A stretch of DNA of 64,000 bases from NCBI GenBank assembly GCA_003134765.1, contig PLCM01000020.1, positions 1-64,000 on the forward strand, given 5' to 3'. Shown here piece after piece: positions 2,190-14,300 of the stretch. A program made the translations under genes and the position numbers. The number at the start of each line of letters is the position of its first letter. The stretch's first letter is position 1. The stretch is from Spartobacteria bacterium. GTDB lineage: Bacteria; Verrucomicrobiota; Verrucomicrobiia; Chthoniobacterales; UBA10450. The notes below the pieces were generated by a model. That model saw only the letters and a program-made list of their open reading frames with translations, did no database searches and had not been told where the DNA came from.

Positions 2190-2372
2190 CATTTCTGTTC
2201 CATTATCGGTTCCTATCATAAAGTGAGCATTAAGCATCTGGACGCCTATCTGGACGAGCTAGAGCATCGCTTCAATAATCGGAAAAACGAATACATTTTC
2301 AGGGATACTCTCATGAAGCTGGTGACGGCTGCGAAGCTTCCTTACTCGGAGTTGGTGAAGAGGGCGGCGTGA
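2190..2372 (+). pseudogene. C-terminal remnant of an IS1595-family (ISXO2-like) transposase
   Basis: IIGSYHKVSIKHLDAYLDELEHRFNNRKNEYIFRDTLMKLVTAAKLPYSELV matches the ISXO2 C-terminus; no upstream catalytic region. Confidence 0.7.
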
Positions 2373-3282
2373 TTAATTCTCTTAAAAGCAGCCCGTCCCC
2401 ACTGAATGTCATCTGTGTTTGTTTGTCGCGCACGTTACTGTCTGTCACAACGAATTTCGGTATATTCAGCGTCACCGTGTTCTGACTATTGATTATTAAG
2501 GTGACCGACGCGCTTTCTATTTCGATGCCTGCGGGCAGGAGGTAAGCCGGGAAATTGAGCACAAGAGAACGTGCGTTCTCTGCCAATGACCTGACTGGCT
2601 TGCCCATCATGGGATTGTCGAAAGAACAATTTACCGTGAAGTTTAGTCCTCCATCTCCTTCGTTAAAATATTGAATGGTTGAACCCATAATCAATAGTTG
2701 GCCGTCTTTCATCAGGGCAGCGCCAGTGCTAGGACCATAATCCGTGATGCTAGAAGGCTTCTCTTTCTTGCTTTCGTCCTGTCTCCTCTTCAAGACGATG
2801 AAGAAACGGGCGGACAATAATGGTTTATCCAATGGGTCCGCCTCTATCCGTCGCTCTTTCATCGCCTTGTTGGCCGCAGCTAACTCAGTTTTTACCGTTT
2901 CAAGCTCTTTGCGAACCTCCACGTCTTTTACATCAAATGTTATAGGCGCTGGCGTTGCGCTCTTTAGTGCATTCTCCGCTGCCGTTTTAGCTTTCTCTGC
3001 CTCCTTCTTAGCAGCGTGTTCTTCGCTGTATAAAGCCGCAGGAGTGAAGATGAGAACATTCAATAAGAACACTACCAGGAAAGCGCACGCTGTTATTAAC
3101 GCCGCAATCCCGAAGTCTCTCAGTGCCCGCTTCGCTTCTTCGTGCTGCTTGCGACAGCGCAAAAACCAAAATGTGCCAAAGAATATGCCGAGCGCGATCA
3201 CGGCTGACAAAAACGAGCGGTCGAAAACGAGATTCCATGTGTTAGTGAACGCTCTTTGAAGTAATGTCTGGAGGTAGTCCAT
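2311..3282 (-). CDS. hypothetical membrane protein (two N-terminal TM segments, coiled coil, C-terminal beta-rich domain)
   Basis: 323 aa ORF, hydrophobic segments near the N-terminus, AAKKEAEKAKTAAENAL coiled coil. Confidence 0.65.
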   Translation of the reverse strand: MDYLQTLLQRAFTNTWNLVFDRSFLSAVIALGIFFGTFWFLRCRKQHEEAKRALRDFGIAALITACAFLVVFLLNVLIFTPAALYSEEHAAKKEAEKAKTAAENALKSATPAPITFDVKDVEVRKELETVKTELAAANKAMKERRIEADPLDKPLLSARFFIVLKRRQDESKKEKPSSITDYGPSTGAALMKDGQLLIMGSTIQYFNEGDGGLNFTVNCSFDNPMMGKPVRSLAENARSLVLNFPAYLLPAGIEIESASVTLIINSQNTVTLNIPKFVVTDSNVRDKQTQMTFSGDGLLLRELITPPSSPTPSKEASQPSPAS

Positions 3283-3632
3283 TTCTCAGGTTTGCGACGA
3301 TTACTCCCTGCGTCAAGCCGATAATCCCGCTTCGATTAACGCTCGCTCCGGTAGCCGTCGCTGATCTTATTCTCGTTAACACCGACGAATAATTCTAAGC
3401 GGTGCTGCCCTTGTCCAGTACAGAGGACATAACTCAATAATAGCCCTCTACCTATAGGACACAATTACCAGGTGTCCATGTAACCAACGGCCCCAAAACC
3501 GTCGTTGTAGAAAGTTGGTTGCGCAACGCGCAAACGGGTGCATAAGCTAACATGAATACACAAGACTACGACGGTAACATAATAACAGGCGACGATCCTG
3601 GAGCAACATCGTAGGCAGAACAACGGAGCGAC

Positions 3633-3706
3633 ACTTAACAAATCCGCCGAATCGAAGCAGCTCTCTCAAATAGCTTCGCGATTGTCGGCTTGACACAAGG
3701 TTAGAG
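3633..3706 (+). repeat. attC-like imperfect palindrome
   Basis: ACTTAAC (3633-3639), GCCGAATCGAAGC (3646-3658) paired with GCTTCGCGATTGTCGGC (3673-3689) with bulges, GTTAGAG (3700-3706). Confidence 0.45.
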
Positions 3707-3753
3707 TCCCATAATTATTCGGCGAATGCGAGGCTCTTTCGCACTGCCGTAAT

Positions 3754-5064
3754 ATGCTCAAACGTATGTGGAGTCACATCTTGGCCTTTATATCGCACCC
3801 TGTGTTTGGAATCGTGCTCGCAATTCTGGTCTTGGTCGCGGGATGGAAGATGACTGCAAACGGAGCCAACGCATTGCTGTTCACGGCTTGGGCTATTGTG
3901 GTTGCTTATGCCTTTCTTACAGGCCCACTGCCACAACTGGAAGTGATTCCGAGAATTGCGGGCACCCTCGTCATTGCCGGGGCGTTCGGTCTGGCGATCT
4001 ATTACACGCTTTGGACGATCAAAAATCCTGCTCCAGCTCCAACGGAAGTAGAAACACCTTCAACGGTAAGACCCAGTTCGCCGTCGCCCGCGCCATCTCC
4101 AACGGTAGTCCCAGAATCCGACCTGGTTCCCGACCTACACAAGCAATACCTGACGGATTATAAGGGAATGAAGTTTGGGTTCGACAAGGTGCTTCAATCT
4201 CCAGATGGCACAGTGAAAAGTACGATAAATGTTCAGATTAATTTAGATCACCAAGCAAAATCAAAGTTCCTAAGTGTCTATATTCCTCACGTGCCTTCCA
4301 CGTATGATGTTTGCAAGTCATTGCCTGAACTTCATAAGACCTTTCTTGCTGATGGGGACACCGTTCGTTCGGACATGCAGATGCCGGGGGACGCCACGGT
4401 AAGCTCTTCGAGAGATATGATCTTCACCGGGGTAATCTACATTTATCACGAAGATCGTCTGACGCTGGAAGAACTGGGTTCCTTAGAGAATCTGTTCAAG
4501 GCACAAAAGCTATTCGTCCATTTTAGGGACACAAATTACGCAACAACAATGTGGCTATCGAGAAAGGCGGCTGCATCTGGGCATCCTTCATCAACGTCCA
4601 CCGAAACTACGGCGAAAAACCTCGATCTGAGAGTTTCTGCCTTAGGAATTGAATATGACCAGGAAAAGAAAGAATTGGTCGCTCATTTTATGTTCCGCAA
4701 TAACGGAAGTATGCAAAGAACTGTACTCAATCTCACGTTCATCTATTGGGATCCGAACCGTGAATCGAAGAACAGTTACCAAATACTTTCCACGCGCGAG
4801 TCGGAATCACCGTATCCAGGCGACGTTAAACCAACAACCATGAACGCTCAGACTGAGCAGATGCTTACATGTCGTAGAATCATTGGCCTTCCAGCATACG
4901 CAAAGGTGGGAGGAATGATCGGGATTAGAATAAACACCACCGACCCGAATGGAGTCGTTAAGACAAAGGAGCTAGAGTTAATGGAGATACAAAAGATGGC
5001 ACTCGTTGGCGATGGAATTAGTTATACGGGCAAGCGGGTTGAGAATGTGTCGTTAGATGACTAA
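3754..5064 (+). CDS. hypothetical membrane protein with Pro/Ser-rich linker and soluble C-terminal domain
   Basis: 436 aa ORF with three to four TM segments then PAPAPTEVETPSTVRPSSPSPAPSPTVVPE. Confidence 0.65.
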   Translation: MLKRMWSHILAFISHPVFGIVLAILVLVAGWKMTANGANALLFTAWAIVVAYAFLTGPLPQLEVIPRIAGTLVIAGAFGLAIYYTLWTIKNPAPAPTEVETPSTVRPSSPSPAPSPTVVPESDLVPDLHKQYLTDYKGMKFGFDKVLQSPDGTVKSTINVQINLDHQAKSKFLSVYIPHVPSTYDVCKSLPELHKTFLADGDTVRSDMQMPGDATVSSSRDMIFTGVIYIYHEDRLTLEELGSLENLFKAQKLFVHFRDTNYATTMWLSRKAAASGHPSSTSTETTAKNLDLRVSALGIEYDQEKKELVAHFMFRNNGSMQRTVLNLTFIYWDPNRESKNSYQILSTRESESPYPGDVKPTTMNAQTEQMLTCRRIIGLPAYAKVGGMIGIRINTTDPNGVVKTKELELMEIQKMALVGDGISYTGKRVENVSLDD

Positions 5065-7559: not shown

Positions 7560-10500
7560 CTACTGCAAATTGTAAACCTCTACCAGTCCCACCCCGGTCG
7601 TGTTGTTCTTGCCGCGCACAATCGCGGTGTAGTTGCCGGGTGGGACCGACTGCACGAGAGCGGATTCGAGATCGTTGCCTGGAGCGAGCGTTGTCGCCTC
7701 GATTTCAGCTTGCTGGCTGCTTCCATCAGCTCGCAATTTCCAATTGTCGTTCGTTGCCAGAGTCGTGCCGTTGCCGTCGTGCAATTCCAATGTCGGATCG
7801 GCCAATGTATTTTGGACACCGAATGCGGCAAGCGACGGACCGATAGCGCGGGCAACCACTTTGGCGGGAGCTATCCCCTGGGTGCCTCCAACAATAAACC
7901 CCCCGATCATCACGTTGTCTCCAGTATCGACGAATCCCCGGGTGCTGATGTTCGCCAACCTCGCTTTCGCTCCCTGGGAGAGATCGTAGAGTTCGACCAG
8001 TCCGACCCCGGTGCCGTTGTTCTTGCCTGCCAGGATTGCGGTGTAGTTGCCAGGAGCAAGAGTTGCGATAAGGGCCGATTCCAAATCGTTCGTCGGCGGG
8101 ATGGTAGTTGCCTCGATCTCCGCCTGTTGACTGGTTCCATCGGGCTTAACCTTCCAGTTGTCATTAGTAGAAATCGTGGTGCTCCCCTGGTGCAGTTCCA
8201 GCGTCGGATCGGATACGGTCGCGCCGACTCCGCCAAGGGATGGTCCGATTCCACGAAGAATAACCTTCTTCGGTTCGGTTCCCGTGATAATGAAGCCGGC
8301 AATCAAGACCTGTTCGCCAGTCAGCACACGCATGCGGGTGGAAATATTCAGTGGCTGAAAGGTCGGAGGGTTGAACCACACTTTCCGAATGCGATCATTG
8401 AGCGTATCGGCAATATAAAGATCGCCAGCGGAGTCGGTAGCCAGCTCGCCCGGTGAGCCACTAAGCCGCGCGGTAAGCGCAGGGCCACCGTCTCCGCCAA
8501 AGAGATGTGGGGCGCTCGGGTCATTGCCAACCAAGTAGCTGATAGTGTTGTCGCTCGCCACCTTCGTAACAAGGGTCTCAGAACCAATAAAGTACCCGCC
8601 ACGGCCATCAAAAGCAACATTACAAACTGTTTCGAGCGTCACCTGTGTCGCCAGAGTTTGTGGACTAGGAATATTGGTAGCCCCTGCTTGTCCATCATCT
8701 CCTGCAAATCTCGTGATGATTCCCTGCGGATCGACCTTGCGCACTTGGGTTGGCTTCCCAAGGGGGCCTGATATGTAGACGCTGCCATCACTTTCTACTG
8801 CTACTGCATAGGGGTTGTTGATTGCAGCGTTCGTCGCGAGCCCACCGTCGCCGCTGTAACTGTACTGGCCGTTGCCGGCAATTGTCGTGATGATCCCAGA
8901 AGTATCGACCTTGCGAATCCGAGCATGACCTTGGTCCGCGATATAAAGGTTCCCGGCAAGGTCAACCGCAATGCCATTGACTCCCCCGAGACTAGCATTG
9001 ATCGCCGGCCCTCCATCTCCGAGAGAGTTGCTGCAACAATCGCCGTTGCCTGCATAGGTGCTGATAATGCCATTCTTGTCGATTTTTCGAATTCGATTGT
9101 TGCGGTAATCCGACACGTAAACATTGCCGGTGCTGTCCCCCGCAACCCCCCGAGGCTCGTCGAGCATCGCATTCACGGCTGGTCCGTTGTCCCCTGAAAA
9201 TCCGGCGACGCCCGTGCCGGCGATCGTGCTGATAGTCCCGGCTGTTGTTACCTTCCGTATCTTATTGTTCAAAGTATCGCCTATATACATGTTGCCGTCA
9301 GGATCAAAGGCGACCCCGCCGGGCCGATTAAGTCCTGCCGAGGTTGCTGGACCGCCATCGCCGAAAGAATTGCCTGCACCGTTACCCGCGATGGTCGTGA
9401 TCGTGCCCGAAGAGTCGATCTTGCGGACACGGCTATTGAATGTGTCAGTAACGTAGCTGTTGCCCGCGTTATCCATGAAGATATCGAAAATGCTCCTGAA
9501 CGTTGCGTTGAGCGCTTGACCACCATCGCCGGAGAACCCATAGGCACCGGTGCCAATGACTGTTGCTATTTTTCCGTCCGTGGAAATTTTTCGAACAACG
9601 TTGGCGTTCATGTCGGCGAAGTATAAGTTGCCGGCCGTGTCCGGAAACAAGCCGTTTGGTTGACTAAGGACGGCGTTGACCGCCAGTCCTCCATCACCTG
9701 AATAACCGTTCTGTCCCGTCCCGGCGATGGTTTGAATGATGCCGTCGGTTGTTACCTTACGGATACGATGCGCATCTTTGTCAGCTATGTAGAGATTGCC
9801 GCTCAAGTCGACAGCCAAGCCGGTGGCGAAATTGATGGAAGCGGACGTGGCTGGGCCTCCATCTCCGGAGAATCCCTGAACGCCGTTCCCGGCGACTGTG
9901 ACGACAGTGCGGTCAGTTCTTATTTTTCGGATGGTCTTGTGATTCCCGTCGGAAACATAAAGATTCCCCGTCGAATCGATGGCGATCCCATTGGGGGAGA
10001 GGAACGTGCTTGTCGCTGCTATTCCTTCAACCGGTGTCGTATTTACGTCCTGGCCTCCGCCGGCAAAGGTGCTAATTATTCCAGCCGGTGTCACTCGCCG
10101 AACGCGATTATGGTCCAGGTCCGCGATGTAAAGATTATCCGAAGCGTCGAACAGGAGAAACCCCGGACTGTTCAATCCCGCCTGAGTGGCCGGGCCGTTG
10201 TCGCCGCTGTATTCGGTGAGTCCATTGCCGGCAAACACTGTGAGCGTGCCCGACGGAGTAATCTTTACCACAATGTTGTTCGTCTGATCCGAAACATAAA
10301 GACTTCCTACCGAGTCGCGGGCCAGTCCACTTACTTCCCCCAAATTTACCTGCGTCGCTGGACCTCCGACTCCAAGCAACTTTCTGCCGCTCCCAGCGAC
10401 CGTGGTGATGATGGGAGTCGGTGTAGGAGAGGACGCTGTCTGGGAAGAGGGTCGAAAAGAGGCGCTAAGATCGACTCCCTTGTTTACCTGTTCTCTTTTT

Positions 10501-10577
10501 TCTCCGAATACCAGCCCAACTGCCGCTACCGACGCTCCAAGGCAAAATATCGCGGCGATAAATCTCGGGGAACTCAT
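7560..10577 (-). CDS. secreted NHL-repeat beta-propeller protein with duplicated C-terminal domain
   Basis: 1005 aa; many NHL-like repeats (AVDLSGNLYIADKDAHRIRKVTTDGIIQTIAGTG); two C-terminal copies of GPSL...DPTLELH...DNWK...GNYTAI...GVGLVE. Confidence 0.9.
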   Translation of the reverse strand: MSSPRFIAAIFCLGASVAAVGLVFGEKREQVNKGVDLSASFRPSSQTASSPTPTPIITTVAGSGRKLLGVGGPATQVNLGEVSGLARDSVGSLYVSDQTNNIVVKITPSGTLTVFAGNGLTEYSGDNGPATQAGLNSPGFLLFDASDNLYIADLDHNRVRRVTPAGIISTFAGGGQDVNTTPVEGIAATSTFLSPNGIAIDSTGNLYVSDGNHKTIRKIRTDRTVVTVAGNGVQGFSGDGGPATSASINFATGLAVDLSGNLYIADKDAHRIRKVTTDGIIQTIAGTGQNGYSGDGGLAVNAVLSQPNGLFPDTAGNLYFADMNANVVRKISTDGKIATVIGTGAYGFSGDGGQALNATFRSIFDIFMDNAGNSYVTDTFNSRVRKIDSSGTITTIAGNGAGNSFGDGGPATSAGLNRPGGVAFDPDGNMYIGDTLNNKIRKVTTAGTISTIAGTGVAGFSGDNGPAVNAMLDEPRGVAGDSTGNVYVSDYRNNRIRKIDKNGIISTYAGNGDCCSNSLGDGGPAINASLGGVNGIAVDLAGNLYIADQGHARIRKVDTSGIITTIAGNGQYSYSGDGGLATNAAINNPYAVAVESDGSVYISGPLGKPTQVRKVDPQGIITRFAGDDGQAGATNIPSPQTLATQVTLETVCNVAFDGRGGYFIGSETLVTKVASDNTISYLVGNDPSAPHLFGGDGGPALTARLSGSPGELATDSAGDLYIADTLNDRIRKVWFNPPTFQPLNISTRMRVLTGEQVLIAGFIITGTEPKKVILRGIGPSLGGVGATVSDPTLELHQGSTTISTNDNWKVKPDGTSQQAEIEATTIPPTNDLESALIATLAPGNYTAILAGKNNGTGVGLVELYDLSQGAKARLANISTRGFVDTGDNVMIGGFIVGGTQGIAPAKVVARAIGPSLAAFGVQNTLADPTLELHDGNGTTLATNDNWKLRADGSSQQAEIEATTLAPGNDLESALVQSVPPGNYTAIVRGKNNTTGVGLVEVYNLQ

Positions 10578-10848: not shown

Positions 10849-11056
10849 TTAGGCCGCCATTTTCGGGGAAGCGTTTTCCACATCGTCAGCGGCATCAAAA
10901 ACGCGGACTTTGCCTTGGTTGTAACCGGCTGTAGAATTTCGCGTAGCCGATGGCCGCCTGTGAGTCTTGATACCAAAGACGGCCAAAGGGTAGCGCGTCG
11001 GAAATCAGATCGAATCCGCGACGATCTTTGCGCGGTCGGACTTCGTAAAGGTGCAT
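10849..11056 (-). pseudogene. small conserved protein MHLYEVRPRKDRRGFDLISDALPFGRLWY..., frameshifted
   Basis: Frame 1 runs MHLYEVRPRKDRRGFDLISDALPFGRLWYQDSQAAIGYAKFYSR; a -1/+2 shift continues GKVRVFDAADDVENASPKMAA-stop. Confidence 0.6.
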
Positions 11057-11217
11057 CCCGGCGCATTATATGTGCGCGCGAACAGGAGGCGAGACTTCTG
11101 CCATGAAACGGAGTCGGGCATGTGCCCGAAAGAGTGACGGTGTCCGACCCTTGTTCCCAAAACAAGCCACACGGATAGCAAACGACGGATTGCAGCAAGC
11201 CCTAACGGGCCGGTCTG

Positions 11218-12858
11218 CTAATATCCTCCAAAATACTCGCCCTCCTCTTCATCTTCTTCCTCATCTGGGCGGCCAGTTAAACGAGTGACGGCGTCCGCGT
11301 CGTAGAAACGCACGTTCTGATCACGGAGAAAGGAAAAGACGGCGTCTTCGGCGATGTGGTCTTTTTTTGGAAGCGATACCCAACCCTGAACCGCTAATTC
11401 ATAGGACAGTAACCAGTGCGGCCCCCTGAGTGATTCGGGGGTAAACGACTCTTGAAAGGCCTGTGACGGCGGCGGGATTTCCGTCAAATTTCTTTTCGCT
11501 GCATGAAACAGTAGGATTGAGCAGCAGTCGTCTACCATCTGCGCGACCGCCTCAACGGCTTCCTGTGTCACCACAATGTCGAAGACTAATGCCGCCCACA
11601 AACTCCACGCCACTTCGCTACTGTGTTTCACAGGCGCGCACTTTTTGATCATGGCATGGATTGTCTCGCGAACCGCTTCCTCGCTCAGGCTTGCGTGAGT
11701 CTCGTGCAAATCTTTCAATGCTTTTATGGCGAAGGGCCAAACGCCCGGTTCGTGCATCACCGCTTGGAGGATCAAAGCTTGGAGCAACTCAGCCGTAGCG
11801 GATGAAACCCTGACGCCAGAAAGCGAGCTGACCGTGTATCGAAGTATTGACTTGTCGGGAAATTCGCGTTGGCGAGCAAAAGCCCTGGTAAACAAGTGGA
11901 GCAGATCGGACGGCTGTATTGACGGCAAGTCCTGGCCCAGATGAATCCCCGTACGATGATGACTGTCGCGGCGAGGAAAGGCTCGTATCTCCTGTATGCC
12001 TGGATTGTCGAGTTCCTGCGGCAGGTCGCAAATCTTGGTTTTGAGAGGGTTTAGCTCCAACTCGAACTCGGCGAGCGCATCTTCAAGAACGGTTAGCGCG
12101 CGTTCGGCTTTTGACCGTTCAGTAAACACGAGTTCGTAATCATCAATGAAACGGAATCCATCTCGGATACCTTCCTTTTCCAACCGGGCGTCGACTTGCG
12201 AGAGAATGATTTCAGCTAAAAGCATCGACGACACCGGACCGATTGGGACACCGCGAGTTTGCCCGCTCTGGCACGCTTGAACCAAAGAGTCGATCTTCGC
12301 GCCTACAGATTCTTCCGCCGGTCTAGCTCGCAACCGCTTTTTGGCAGCCTCTTTCGAACTCAGCGCCCATTCAATCGCATGAGTGTACACTGATGGGTAA
12401 AACCGACTCACGTCTGCGTAGAGTATGACGTGTTTGCCGAACCGAACCAAGGCACGGTGCGGCGGAACTGCATCGAGAGGCGGCGAACGCGTCAGGCTTC
12501 CGTCACTCCTGATTGTGGGCTTCGGGAGGCAGAATATAGAAGCGCGCGCCTTTCGGAGCAGTTCGTCCTGATGGGCGACAATGGCAGCGGCGAGTCGATA
12601 ATACGGGATGGGATTGGCAATGGCTAACCGGCGGCGTAACAATGCTGGCCTCGCTAGGCTGTAGGCGGAATAGTCGCACCATTTACCCTTTTTCGCGTCA
12701 GTCAGCTCCTCAGGCAGCATATCCTTCCCAACGGTGATCGCCCTTGCAAATTTGGAGGTCGTGAATCCGGGAGGTAATTCAACGGGAAAATATCCGCGAC
12801 TCAGCAATGCGGATAGACTTAGTTTTGGCAGCGATTCAGGGGGCTTTTTTTTTGCCAT
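11218..12858 (-). CDS. stand-alone reverse transcriptase, DRT/Abi-like or unknown-group (UG) type
   Basis: 546 aa; YADVSRFYPSVYTHAIEWAL, TRGVPIGPVSSMLLAEIILSQVDARL, FRFIDDYELVF (xIDD catalytic motif), LNPLKTKI; ~250 aa helical C-terminal extension and acidic tail. Confidence 0.9.
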   Translation of the reverse strand: MAKKKPPESLPKLSLSALLSRGYFPVELPPGFTTSKFARAITVGKDMLPEELTDAKKGKWCDYSAYSLARPALLRRRLAIANPIPYYRLAAAIVAHQDELLRKARASIFCLPKPTIRSDGSLTRSPPLDAVPPHRALVRFGKHVILYADVSRFYPSVYTHAIEWALSSKEAAKKRLRARPAEESVGAKIDSLVQACQSGQTRGVPIGPVSSMLLAEIILSQVDARLEKEGIRDGFRFIDDYELVFTERSKAERALTVLEDALAEFELELNPLKTKICDLPQELDNPGIQEIRAFPRRDSHHRTGIHLGQDLPSIQPSDLLHLFTRAFARQREFPDKSILRYTVSSLSGVRVSSATAELLQALILQAVMHEPGVWPFAIKALKDLHETHASLSEEAVRETIHAMIKKCAPVKHSSEVAWSLWAALVFDIVVTQEAVEAVAQMVDDCCSILLFHAAKRNLTEIPPPSQAFQESFTPESLRGPHWLLSYELAVQGWVSLPKKDHIAEDAVFSFLRDQNVRFYDADAVTRLTGRPDEEEDEEEGEYFGGY

Positions 12859-12918: not shown

Positions 12919-12987
12919 TCAAAATGGGTTCTCAATCAGATTAAATCCGCGTCGGTCTTTGCGGGGTCGGACTTCGTAACCGTGCAT
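12919..12987 (-). pseudogene. truncated second copy of the MHxYEVRPRKDRRGF small gene
   Basis: MHGYEVRPRKDRRGFNLIENPF-stop; near-identical at DNA level to 11006-11056. Confidence 0.6.
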
Positions 12988-12998
12988 CCGCGCATCCT

Positions 12999-13065
12999 AT
13001 CTTCCGGCAGGTTGCGGAGCTGTTCCAAATTATCGCCACAGTAAATTACCCGCGTATCGATGAGG
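12999..13065 (-). pseudogene. N-terminal fragment of a site-specific DNA methyltransferase
   Basis: TRVIYCGDNLEQLRNLPEDR resembles the N-terminus of DNA methyltransferases with NLEQLRxLP...DLIYIDPPF; catalytic part missing. Confidence 0.45.
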
Positions 13066-13505: not shown

Positions 13506-14048
13506 ATGCCGCTAAACATCGAAAGTCTTCACATCGGAATGAGGGTGACGCATCCGCGTTACGGAATCGGCATCATCAAAGCACTCACACAGCACACCGC
13601 AGACATTTCGTTCGACGACACTCCGAGAACAGTCGATCCAAGTTCGAGCGAACTCACGTCGACAGAAGCGACCGCCACTTTAACAGAGCTGCAAGTGCCC
13701 CTGGCGAATCTCATCCGCGAAACGACTCAAGCAGTGGTCGATGCGCTTGGCTTTGAAAAACGCGATGTAATCGTTGAAGGACTCGCGAACCGGTGGCAGC
13801 GCGGATCGCTTATCATGCAACCTGCGGACAGCTCGATTCAGGCAAAGGAGGTACCAATCGAGACCTTCTTCCACAAAATTGTTATGGTTCGGAATCAGCT
13901 CCGCGTTCTGGAGCAGAAGGTCAACGCGAGCGACAAACTGAGCGATGCCGACAAATTTGACATCCAGCAGTACATCACTCGCTGTTATGGATCGCTGACG
14001 ACTTTCAATGTTCTCTTTAAGCGAAAAGAGGACCATTTCGGAAACTGA
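13506..14048 (+). CDS. conserved hypothetical protein
   Basis: 180 aa ORF, VTHPRYGIGIIKAL N-terminal (CarD/Tudor-like beta) segment plus helical C-terminus. Confidence 0.7.
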   Translation: MPLNIESLHIGMRVTHPRYGIGIIKALTQHTADISFDDTPRTVDPSSSELTSTEATATLTELQVPLANLIRETTQAVVDALGFEKRDVIVEGLANRWQRGSLIMQPADSSIQAKEVPIETFFHKIVMVRNQLRVLEQKVNASDKLSDADKFDIQQYITRCYGSLTTFNVLFKRKEDHFGN

Positions 14049-14129
14049 GCAGTTCGGACAGCCACGACCGAAGCGGCACGCTAGGGCATGGTTCGCAATG
14101 GTGGCACAGAAAGGTGATAAAAGTTCGTG

Positions 14130-14300
14130 ATGATTCGGAACAACCTGCGGGTGCTCGAGCAAAAGGTGAACGCGAGCGACAAGCTCAGCGACGCGGACAA
14201 GTTCGAGCTCCAACAATACATCACGCGCTGTTACGGCTCTCTCACCACGTTCAACATTCTGTTCAAGAACAAGGACGATCAGTTCCGCACCGGCGGTTGA
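14130..14300 (+). pseudogene. 3' fragment paralogue of the preceding 180 aa gene
   Basis: [52 protein letters not shown] versus [52 protein letters not shown]; in-frame stop just upstream. Confidence 0.7.

Follow-up and report, generated by a model that had tools for sequence, protein, structure and literature searches.

A DRT6 (UG12)-type reverse transcriptase on a serine-recombinase element of a Spartobacteria bacterium, probably a stand-alone, tyrosine-primed defence polymerase

A reverse transcriptase (RT) gene standing alone among repeats and gene remnants raises the question of what family the enzyme belongs to and, if it works by itself, on what it would start its DNA. Such a gene is found in the stretch of 64,000 nucleotides of a Spartobacteria bacterium genome analyzed here (contig PLCM01000020.1, positions 1 to 64,000; hereafter, the window): an ORF of 546 aa, with an ATG start and without internal stop, lies at 11218..12858 on the minus strand. 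An earlier note, made from the letters of the window, took it for an orphan anti-phage RT of the Abi/UG (DRT) type. It is likely, in our reading, that the gene encodes a stand-alone defence polymerase of the DRT6 (UG12) type, carried as cargo by a serine-recombinase element; the enzyme would be hexameric, would work without a template from a tyrosine primer, and would arrest the cell upon phage infection, as an abortive infection system.

The RT motifs listed in the earlier note are found in the ORF at the places it gave. The RT domain, consisting of fingers and palm, covers about residues 1–310 (11929..12858, minus strand) as judged from the AF2 model and the match to RVT_1, which is the sole Pfam match of the protein (38.8 bits vs. 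a cut-off of 29.6, residues 141–278). The catalytic Asp149 in motif A is encoded at 12412..12414 and motif C, FRFIDDYELVF, with the catalytic Asp239 and Asp240, at 12124..12156, both on the minus strand. No variation is seen at D149, D239, D240, T201, G203, G207, or K273 across 31 homologues and again across 19 rows of the DRT6 clade; the pair of catalytic Asp residues is thus kept in all homologues examined, and its loss in close homologues, which the earlier note named as counter-evidence, is not observed. The “xIDD” of the earlier note is ordinary: FIDD, YVDD, YMDD, and YADD are all found at the equivalent site in the relatives.

Among profiles of defence RTs, the PADLOC Drt6 model (PDLC03748) gives the top score, 475 bits with an E-value of 6.5e-143 over residues 13–537, in a profile comparison of the kind that the earlier note had proposed. 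PADLOC models named Drt4 (PDLC02177 and PDLC02179) also score high on the window RT. A DRT4 reading based on these names is nevertheless rejected because, in the relatives scanned, DRT6-clade proteins in general reach high scores with the two models, while true DRT4 proteins match PDLC02180 and PDLC03752. In line with this rejection, the NCBIfam Drt4 equivalog reaches 255.9 bits vs. a cut-off of 450, and the protein lies outside the DRT4 (UG15) clade. Indeed, a maximum-likelihood tree of 42 rows, the phylogeny also proposed in the note, places the window RT together with the DRT6 protein of PDB entry 9wy8 within a DRT6 clade of 24 rows (support 95/97), while Escherichia coli DRT4 (L034, near-identical to PDB 21ou) falls outside it in a separate clade of seven rows (100/99); the long-branch warning for this tree concerns rows outside the DRT6 and DRT4 clades. 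The window RT has L007 and L009 as its nearest rows, with identities of 54% and about 36%, respectively. Two other lineages were considered and set aside. The retron_St85 model gives 21.6 bits vs. a cut-off of 235, and Rfam has no match around the gene; the group II intron maturase model TIGR04416 gives 52.6 bits vs. 300, with RVT_1 as the sole Pfam match. The Abi/UG type suggested for this protein therefore stands and is sharpened by profile, tree, and fold to DRT6/UG12, whereas “orphan”, in the sense of unclassified, does not: the RT is a further member of the already known DRT6 (UG12) family, with a defence function that would follow from the family. Membership and defence role, taken together, are held with high confidence.

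The predicted structure leads to the same family. An AF2 model built with 21 aligned homologues has a mean pLDDT of 86.9 and a pTM of 0.88, and its RT domain is confident except at the N-terminus and residues 298–309. Helices extend from 316 to 528 with pLDDT mostly above 85, and residues 530–546 are disordered, with pLDDT below 50. The fold ranked first by Foldseek in PDB is the hexameric DRT6 9wy8 (E-value 3.1e-31, TM-scores 0.83/0.91, rmsd 2.8 Å), followed by DRT4, UG15, AbiK, and Abi-P2. From this ranking, the helical C-terminal region, in which the earlier note had recognized an Abi/UG-like architecture, is the known alphaRep (alpha-helical repeat) domain of Class 1 UG RTs; it covers about residues 316–528 (11275..11913, minus strand) and is delimited by the AF2 model and by full-length alignment to hexameric DRT6 and DRT4 structures. 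The window RT and 9wy8 are thus alike in top profile, clade, closest fold (over 515 alignment columns), apparent single-gene organization, and the succession of RT domain, alphaRep domain, and long acidic tail, but they are only 26% identical. The viral-contig copy nearest to 9wy8 is, for comparison, 61% identical to it. The 9wy8 construct reads ...DDMDEEYFDSDHSDDDDD near its end, and the alignment covers it up to residue 945 of 962, so that its last 17 residues stand outside the comparison. DRT4 structures (21ou, 9vdo, and 9l9s) share the RT-plus-alphaRep architecture, with a fold E-value of 3.6e-26, and DRT4 differs in the features given above, namely its separate clade and the Drt4 score, and also in the ends of its proteins, as described below.

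How would such an enzyme act? DRT4 makes untemplated, Tyr-primed ssDNA, and the phage protein ORF55 activates both DRT4 and DRT6 (reviewed in PMC13213688; PMC13314766). By homology, the window RT would assemble as a hexamer via its alphaRep domain, and it would make ssDNA without a nucleic acid template. Phage infection would then let this DNA accumulate, which may lead to arrest or death of the cell. Or a DRT6-family RT may work with an unrecognized ncRNA template encoded next to it, like DRT2, DRT3a, and DRT9. There is room for such a gene, as the flanks of the RT, about 650 bp on the upstream and 640 bp on the downstream side, contain no credible intact gene, and a 64-bp repeat is present on both sides. 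On the other hand, no Rfam match is found between 9000 and 15000 on either strand, and the flanks of the window gene and of its relatives L007, L008, L009, and L013 have no conserved sequence in common. Furthermore, DRT4 and DRT6 each consist of a single gene according to the literature (PMC13213688), and the alphaRep architecture accompanies untemplated synthesis (PMC13174585). A hidden ncRNA is therefore considered highly improbable, and untemplated synthesis is retained as the mode of action proposed for the window RT.

Untemplated synthesis places the emphasis on the primer. The last part of the protein, residues 529–546 (11221..11274, minus strand), is a disordered acidic tail with Y546 and Y542 as candidate priming residues, an annotation based on pLDDT and on the enrichment of terminal Tyr in the DRT6 clade. 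The earlier note regarded this acidic tail as distinctive of the window RT; it recurs, however, in most of the clade. DRT6 tails do not align with each other and are acidic in most members, and they end in, for example, GGY, SGYGA, GGGY, ENYE, HNYD, DEYS, NEYE, EYEY, DDGY, PFDY, DIDYF, and GYSDY. Among 21 DRT6 representatives of less than 70% identity, whose last 60 residues were shuffled for comparison, Tyr occurs in the last six residues of 17 (shuffle mean 5.4) and in the last three residues of 13 (shuffle mean 2.9), and none of 5000 shuffles reaches either observed count, although p-values of this kind overstate certainty because DRT6 sequences are not independent. Two of the sequences, L075 and L081, were added to the 21 after the Tyr pattern had been seen; one of them fits it within six residues and the other does not. 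Terminal Tyr is thus about three times as frequent as expected, in tails that are otherwise unalignable. Tyr is absent from the last six residues of the other four representatives (L009, L027, L052, and L081), of which L009 is among the nearest relatives of the window RT.

Priming from either end of the protein is known in other systems. Drt3b is primed by the C-terminal Y666, and the Y666F substitution abolishes both product and defence (PMC13174585), and DRT9 is primed via C-terminal tyrosines (PMC12483538). In AbiK and Abi-P2, in contrast, the primers are Y44 and Y61 in the fingers loop (PMC9508834). When the same count is made in other families, a Tyr near the end is found in six of six Drt3b proteins, one of seven DRT4 proteins, and three of six AbiP2-like proteins. 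Since half of the AbiP2-like proteins end near a Tyr though Abi-P2 is primed from Tyr61, a terminal Tyr alone is no proof of priming. Drt3b (UG8) of the DRT3 system resembles the window RT in being a Class 1 RT with an alphaRep domain and a C-terminal tail that ends at a Tyr, which in Drt3b is proven as the primer (PMC13174585). It differs from the window RT in its partners, Drt3a and an ncRNA, and in its product, poly(dCdA), and it is distant in sequence: the Drt3b score is 90.4 bits vs. a cut-off of 350, over residues 145–280. AbiK and Abi-P2 are Class 1 polymerases that have a helical domain and work untemplated from a protein primer, but their primers lie in a region without a conserved Tyr in the DRT6 clade. 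Only two Tyr residues are invariant in this clade, Y158 next to motif A and Y486 within the alphaRep domain.

Because terminal Tyr is enriched, C-terminal priming is proven in Drt3b and described for DRT9, and no Tyr is conserved in the N-terminal region, Y546 or Y542 is proposed as the primer of DNA synthesis in the window RT, a proposal to which an even chance is given. An own Tyr of the enzyme would prime the synthesis, most likely one of these two, with the end of the tail swinging into the RT active site. The AF2 monomer leaves the tail disordered and so offers no geometry in support of tail priming. An internal Tyr may be used instead, at a position comparable to AbiK Y44 or Abi-P2 Y61 or near Y158, and the acidic tail would then serve in DNA mimicry, autoinhibition, or packing of the hexamer. 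The precedent of the two fingers-loop primers, the invariance of Y158 and Y486, the strong acidity of most tails, and the four of 21 representatives without a terminal Tyr are all in keeping with this alternative. However, the clade has no conserved Tyr in the N-terminal region, where the primers of AbiK and Abi-P2 lie, structural residues are expected at the positions of Y158 (next to motif A) and Y486 (within an alphaRep helix), and terminal Tyr is enriched although the tail is otherwise unalignable. Internal priming is accordingly regarded as a possible but rather doubtful explanation, and the end of the tail is kept as the candidate site. A wider proposal, which is offered tentatively and with slightly less than even confidence, is that the whole DRT6 clade starts its DNA on a Tyr ending a long, flexible, acidic tail. 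The tail would be a tethered terminal protein, its acidic run may hold it off the DNA until the active site is free, and DRT6 and its close relative DRT4 would differ in primer within one fold.

In this way, an odd-looking tail turns into a testable hypothesis on how DRT6 starts its DNA. Should the terminal Tyr prove to be the primer, C-terminal priming would be common to DRT3b, DRT9, and DRT6, with priming from the fingers in AbiK and Abi-P2, and the last few residues could help to sort many uncharacterized Class 1 RTs.

The surroundings of the gene tell how it may have arrived. The earlier note supposed a recombined island, and the island is found to be a serine-recombinase element whose right boundary can be located and whose target gene is restored when the flanks are joined. 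Collinearity with five congeners holds in the part of the window beyond 13.5 kb and is lost on its left side, where GC drops from about 0.59 to about 0.53. All eight genomes of the genus contain a match to the target gene at 13506, and six congeners (G002–G007) have it unbroken. The genome carrying the RT has it in three sections: its native 5′ part lies on another contig (G000:C15:13025-13432, within L071), and its native 3′ part, 85.7–89.1% identical to congeners, at 14125..14300 on the plus strand; the third is an intact second allele at 13506..14048 on the plus strand, an element-borne copy of 180 aa that is 74% identical to the congener allele. Joining the native 5′ and 3′ parts gives an intact gene of 180 aa that is 89% identical to that of a congener. 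The sequence TCGTGA is common to both junctions; it forms an attR-like core at the right end of the element (14125..14130), recognized from the flank sequences, with its left counterpart at about 13055 of G000:C15. The native 5′ part adjoins a large serine recombinase of 548 aa with Resolvase and Recombinase domains (L071, C15, 11382-13028, minus strand), which marks the left end. All features of a large serine recombinase element are therefore present: the recombinase at one end, a split gene, an att-like core, and relatives with an empty site. In the simplest reading, the target gene was split by an integrative element that measures at least 27 kb, with 13.05 kb on C15 and 14.13 kb on C38, and that supplied its own copy; the interior of the element is incomplete because the two contigs are unjoined in the assembly. 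The distance from the RT to the right end is about 1.3 kb, and none of the eight island ORFs is a convincing defence neighbour.

Apart from this, the genome retains a full-length target gene despite the insertion. The element also carries two beta-propeller proteins (NHL, Kelch), at 7560-10577 of the window and 3880-7638 of L071, both on the minus strand, which are similar over about 800 bp of DNA with 70% identity. A PADLOC PD-T4-6 match on the NHL-repeat protein is weak and covers only part of the model, and the protein was not accepted as a defence gene.

The same site is disturbed in another congener. In G001, the target gene is split at the identical place by about 1.8 kb (L073, G001:C151, about 2284-4682, reverse complement), and inside lies what is left of a second allele, another copy of the end of the gene. 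This insert is probably a decayed element at the identical site and, because the split is at the matching place, repeated use of the site is probable. Closer to the RT, two copies of a 64-bp direct repeat lie on the minus strand. One, downstream of the RT at 11003..11066, is the start of a small gene family (MHLYEVRPRKD...) and is 86% identical over 64 bp to the other, upstream at 12934..12995; a search of the own genome finds only these two copies. The repeats could have framed the arrival of the RT by recombination. At about 12999-13061 on the minus strand, a remnant, IDTRVIYCGDNLEQLRNLPED, resembles the start of a DNA methyltransferase and is cut off before the RT gene.

The RT itself is sporadic. 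It is absent from the seven congeners searched, and among 98 genomes of relatives, close DRT6-type homologues are found in the own genome and in G047, G021, and G016; a draw of 390 genomes across the phylum contributed G143. Within the class of G478, a single genome out of 369 has a strong Drt6 match. Furthermore, 13 homologues of the DRT6 clade come from viral contigs, and no match is found on the viral contigs scanned with L018 alone. In G021, the copy (L008, G021:C146) is 55–58% identical and frameshifted near residue 460, at about 2820-2970, with the C-terminal part in another frame. Together with the absence from the congeners and with the gene remnants and repeats around the window gene, this frameshifted relative might suggest that the RT is a decayed or domesticated passenger on the mobile island, without a function in defence. 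Yet the frame of the window gene is open over its full length and retains every catalytic and clade-invariant residue, and full-length homologues occur both on phage-like contigs and in several lineages far from this one. We therefore regard a decayed or domesticated RT as improbable, and the locus is better read as a DRT6 system carried by a mobile element; few carriers are found in this lineage among about 490 genomes searched. In rhizobial plasmids of three genera (L050, L051, and L054), genes for a TOPRIM/AAA ATPase and an ATP-dependent helicase, a Gabija-like pair, are followed directly by a DRT6-type RT, and this order is kept in all three.
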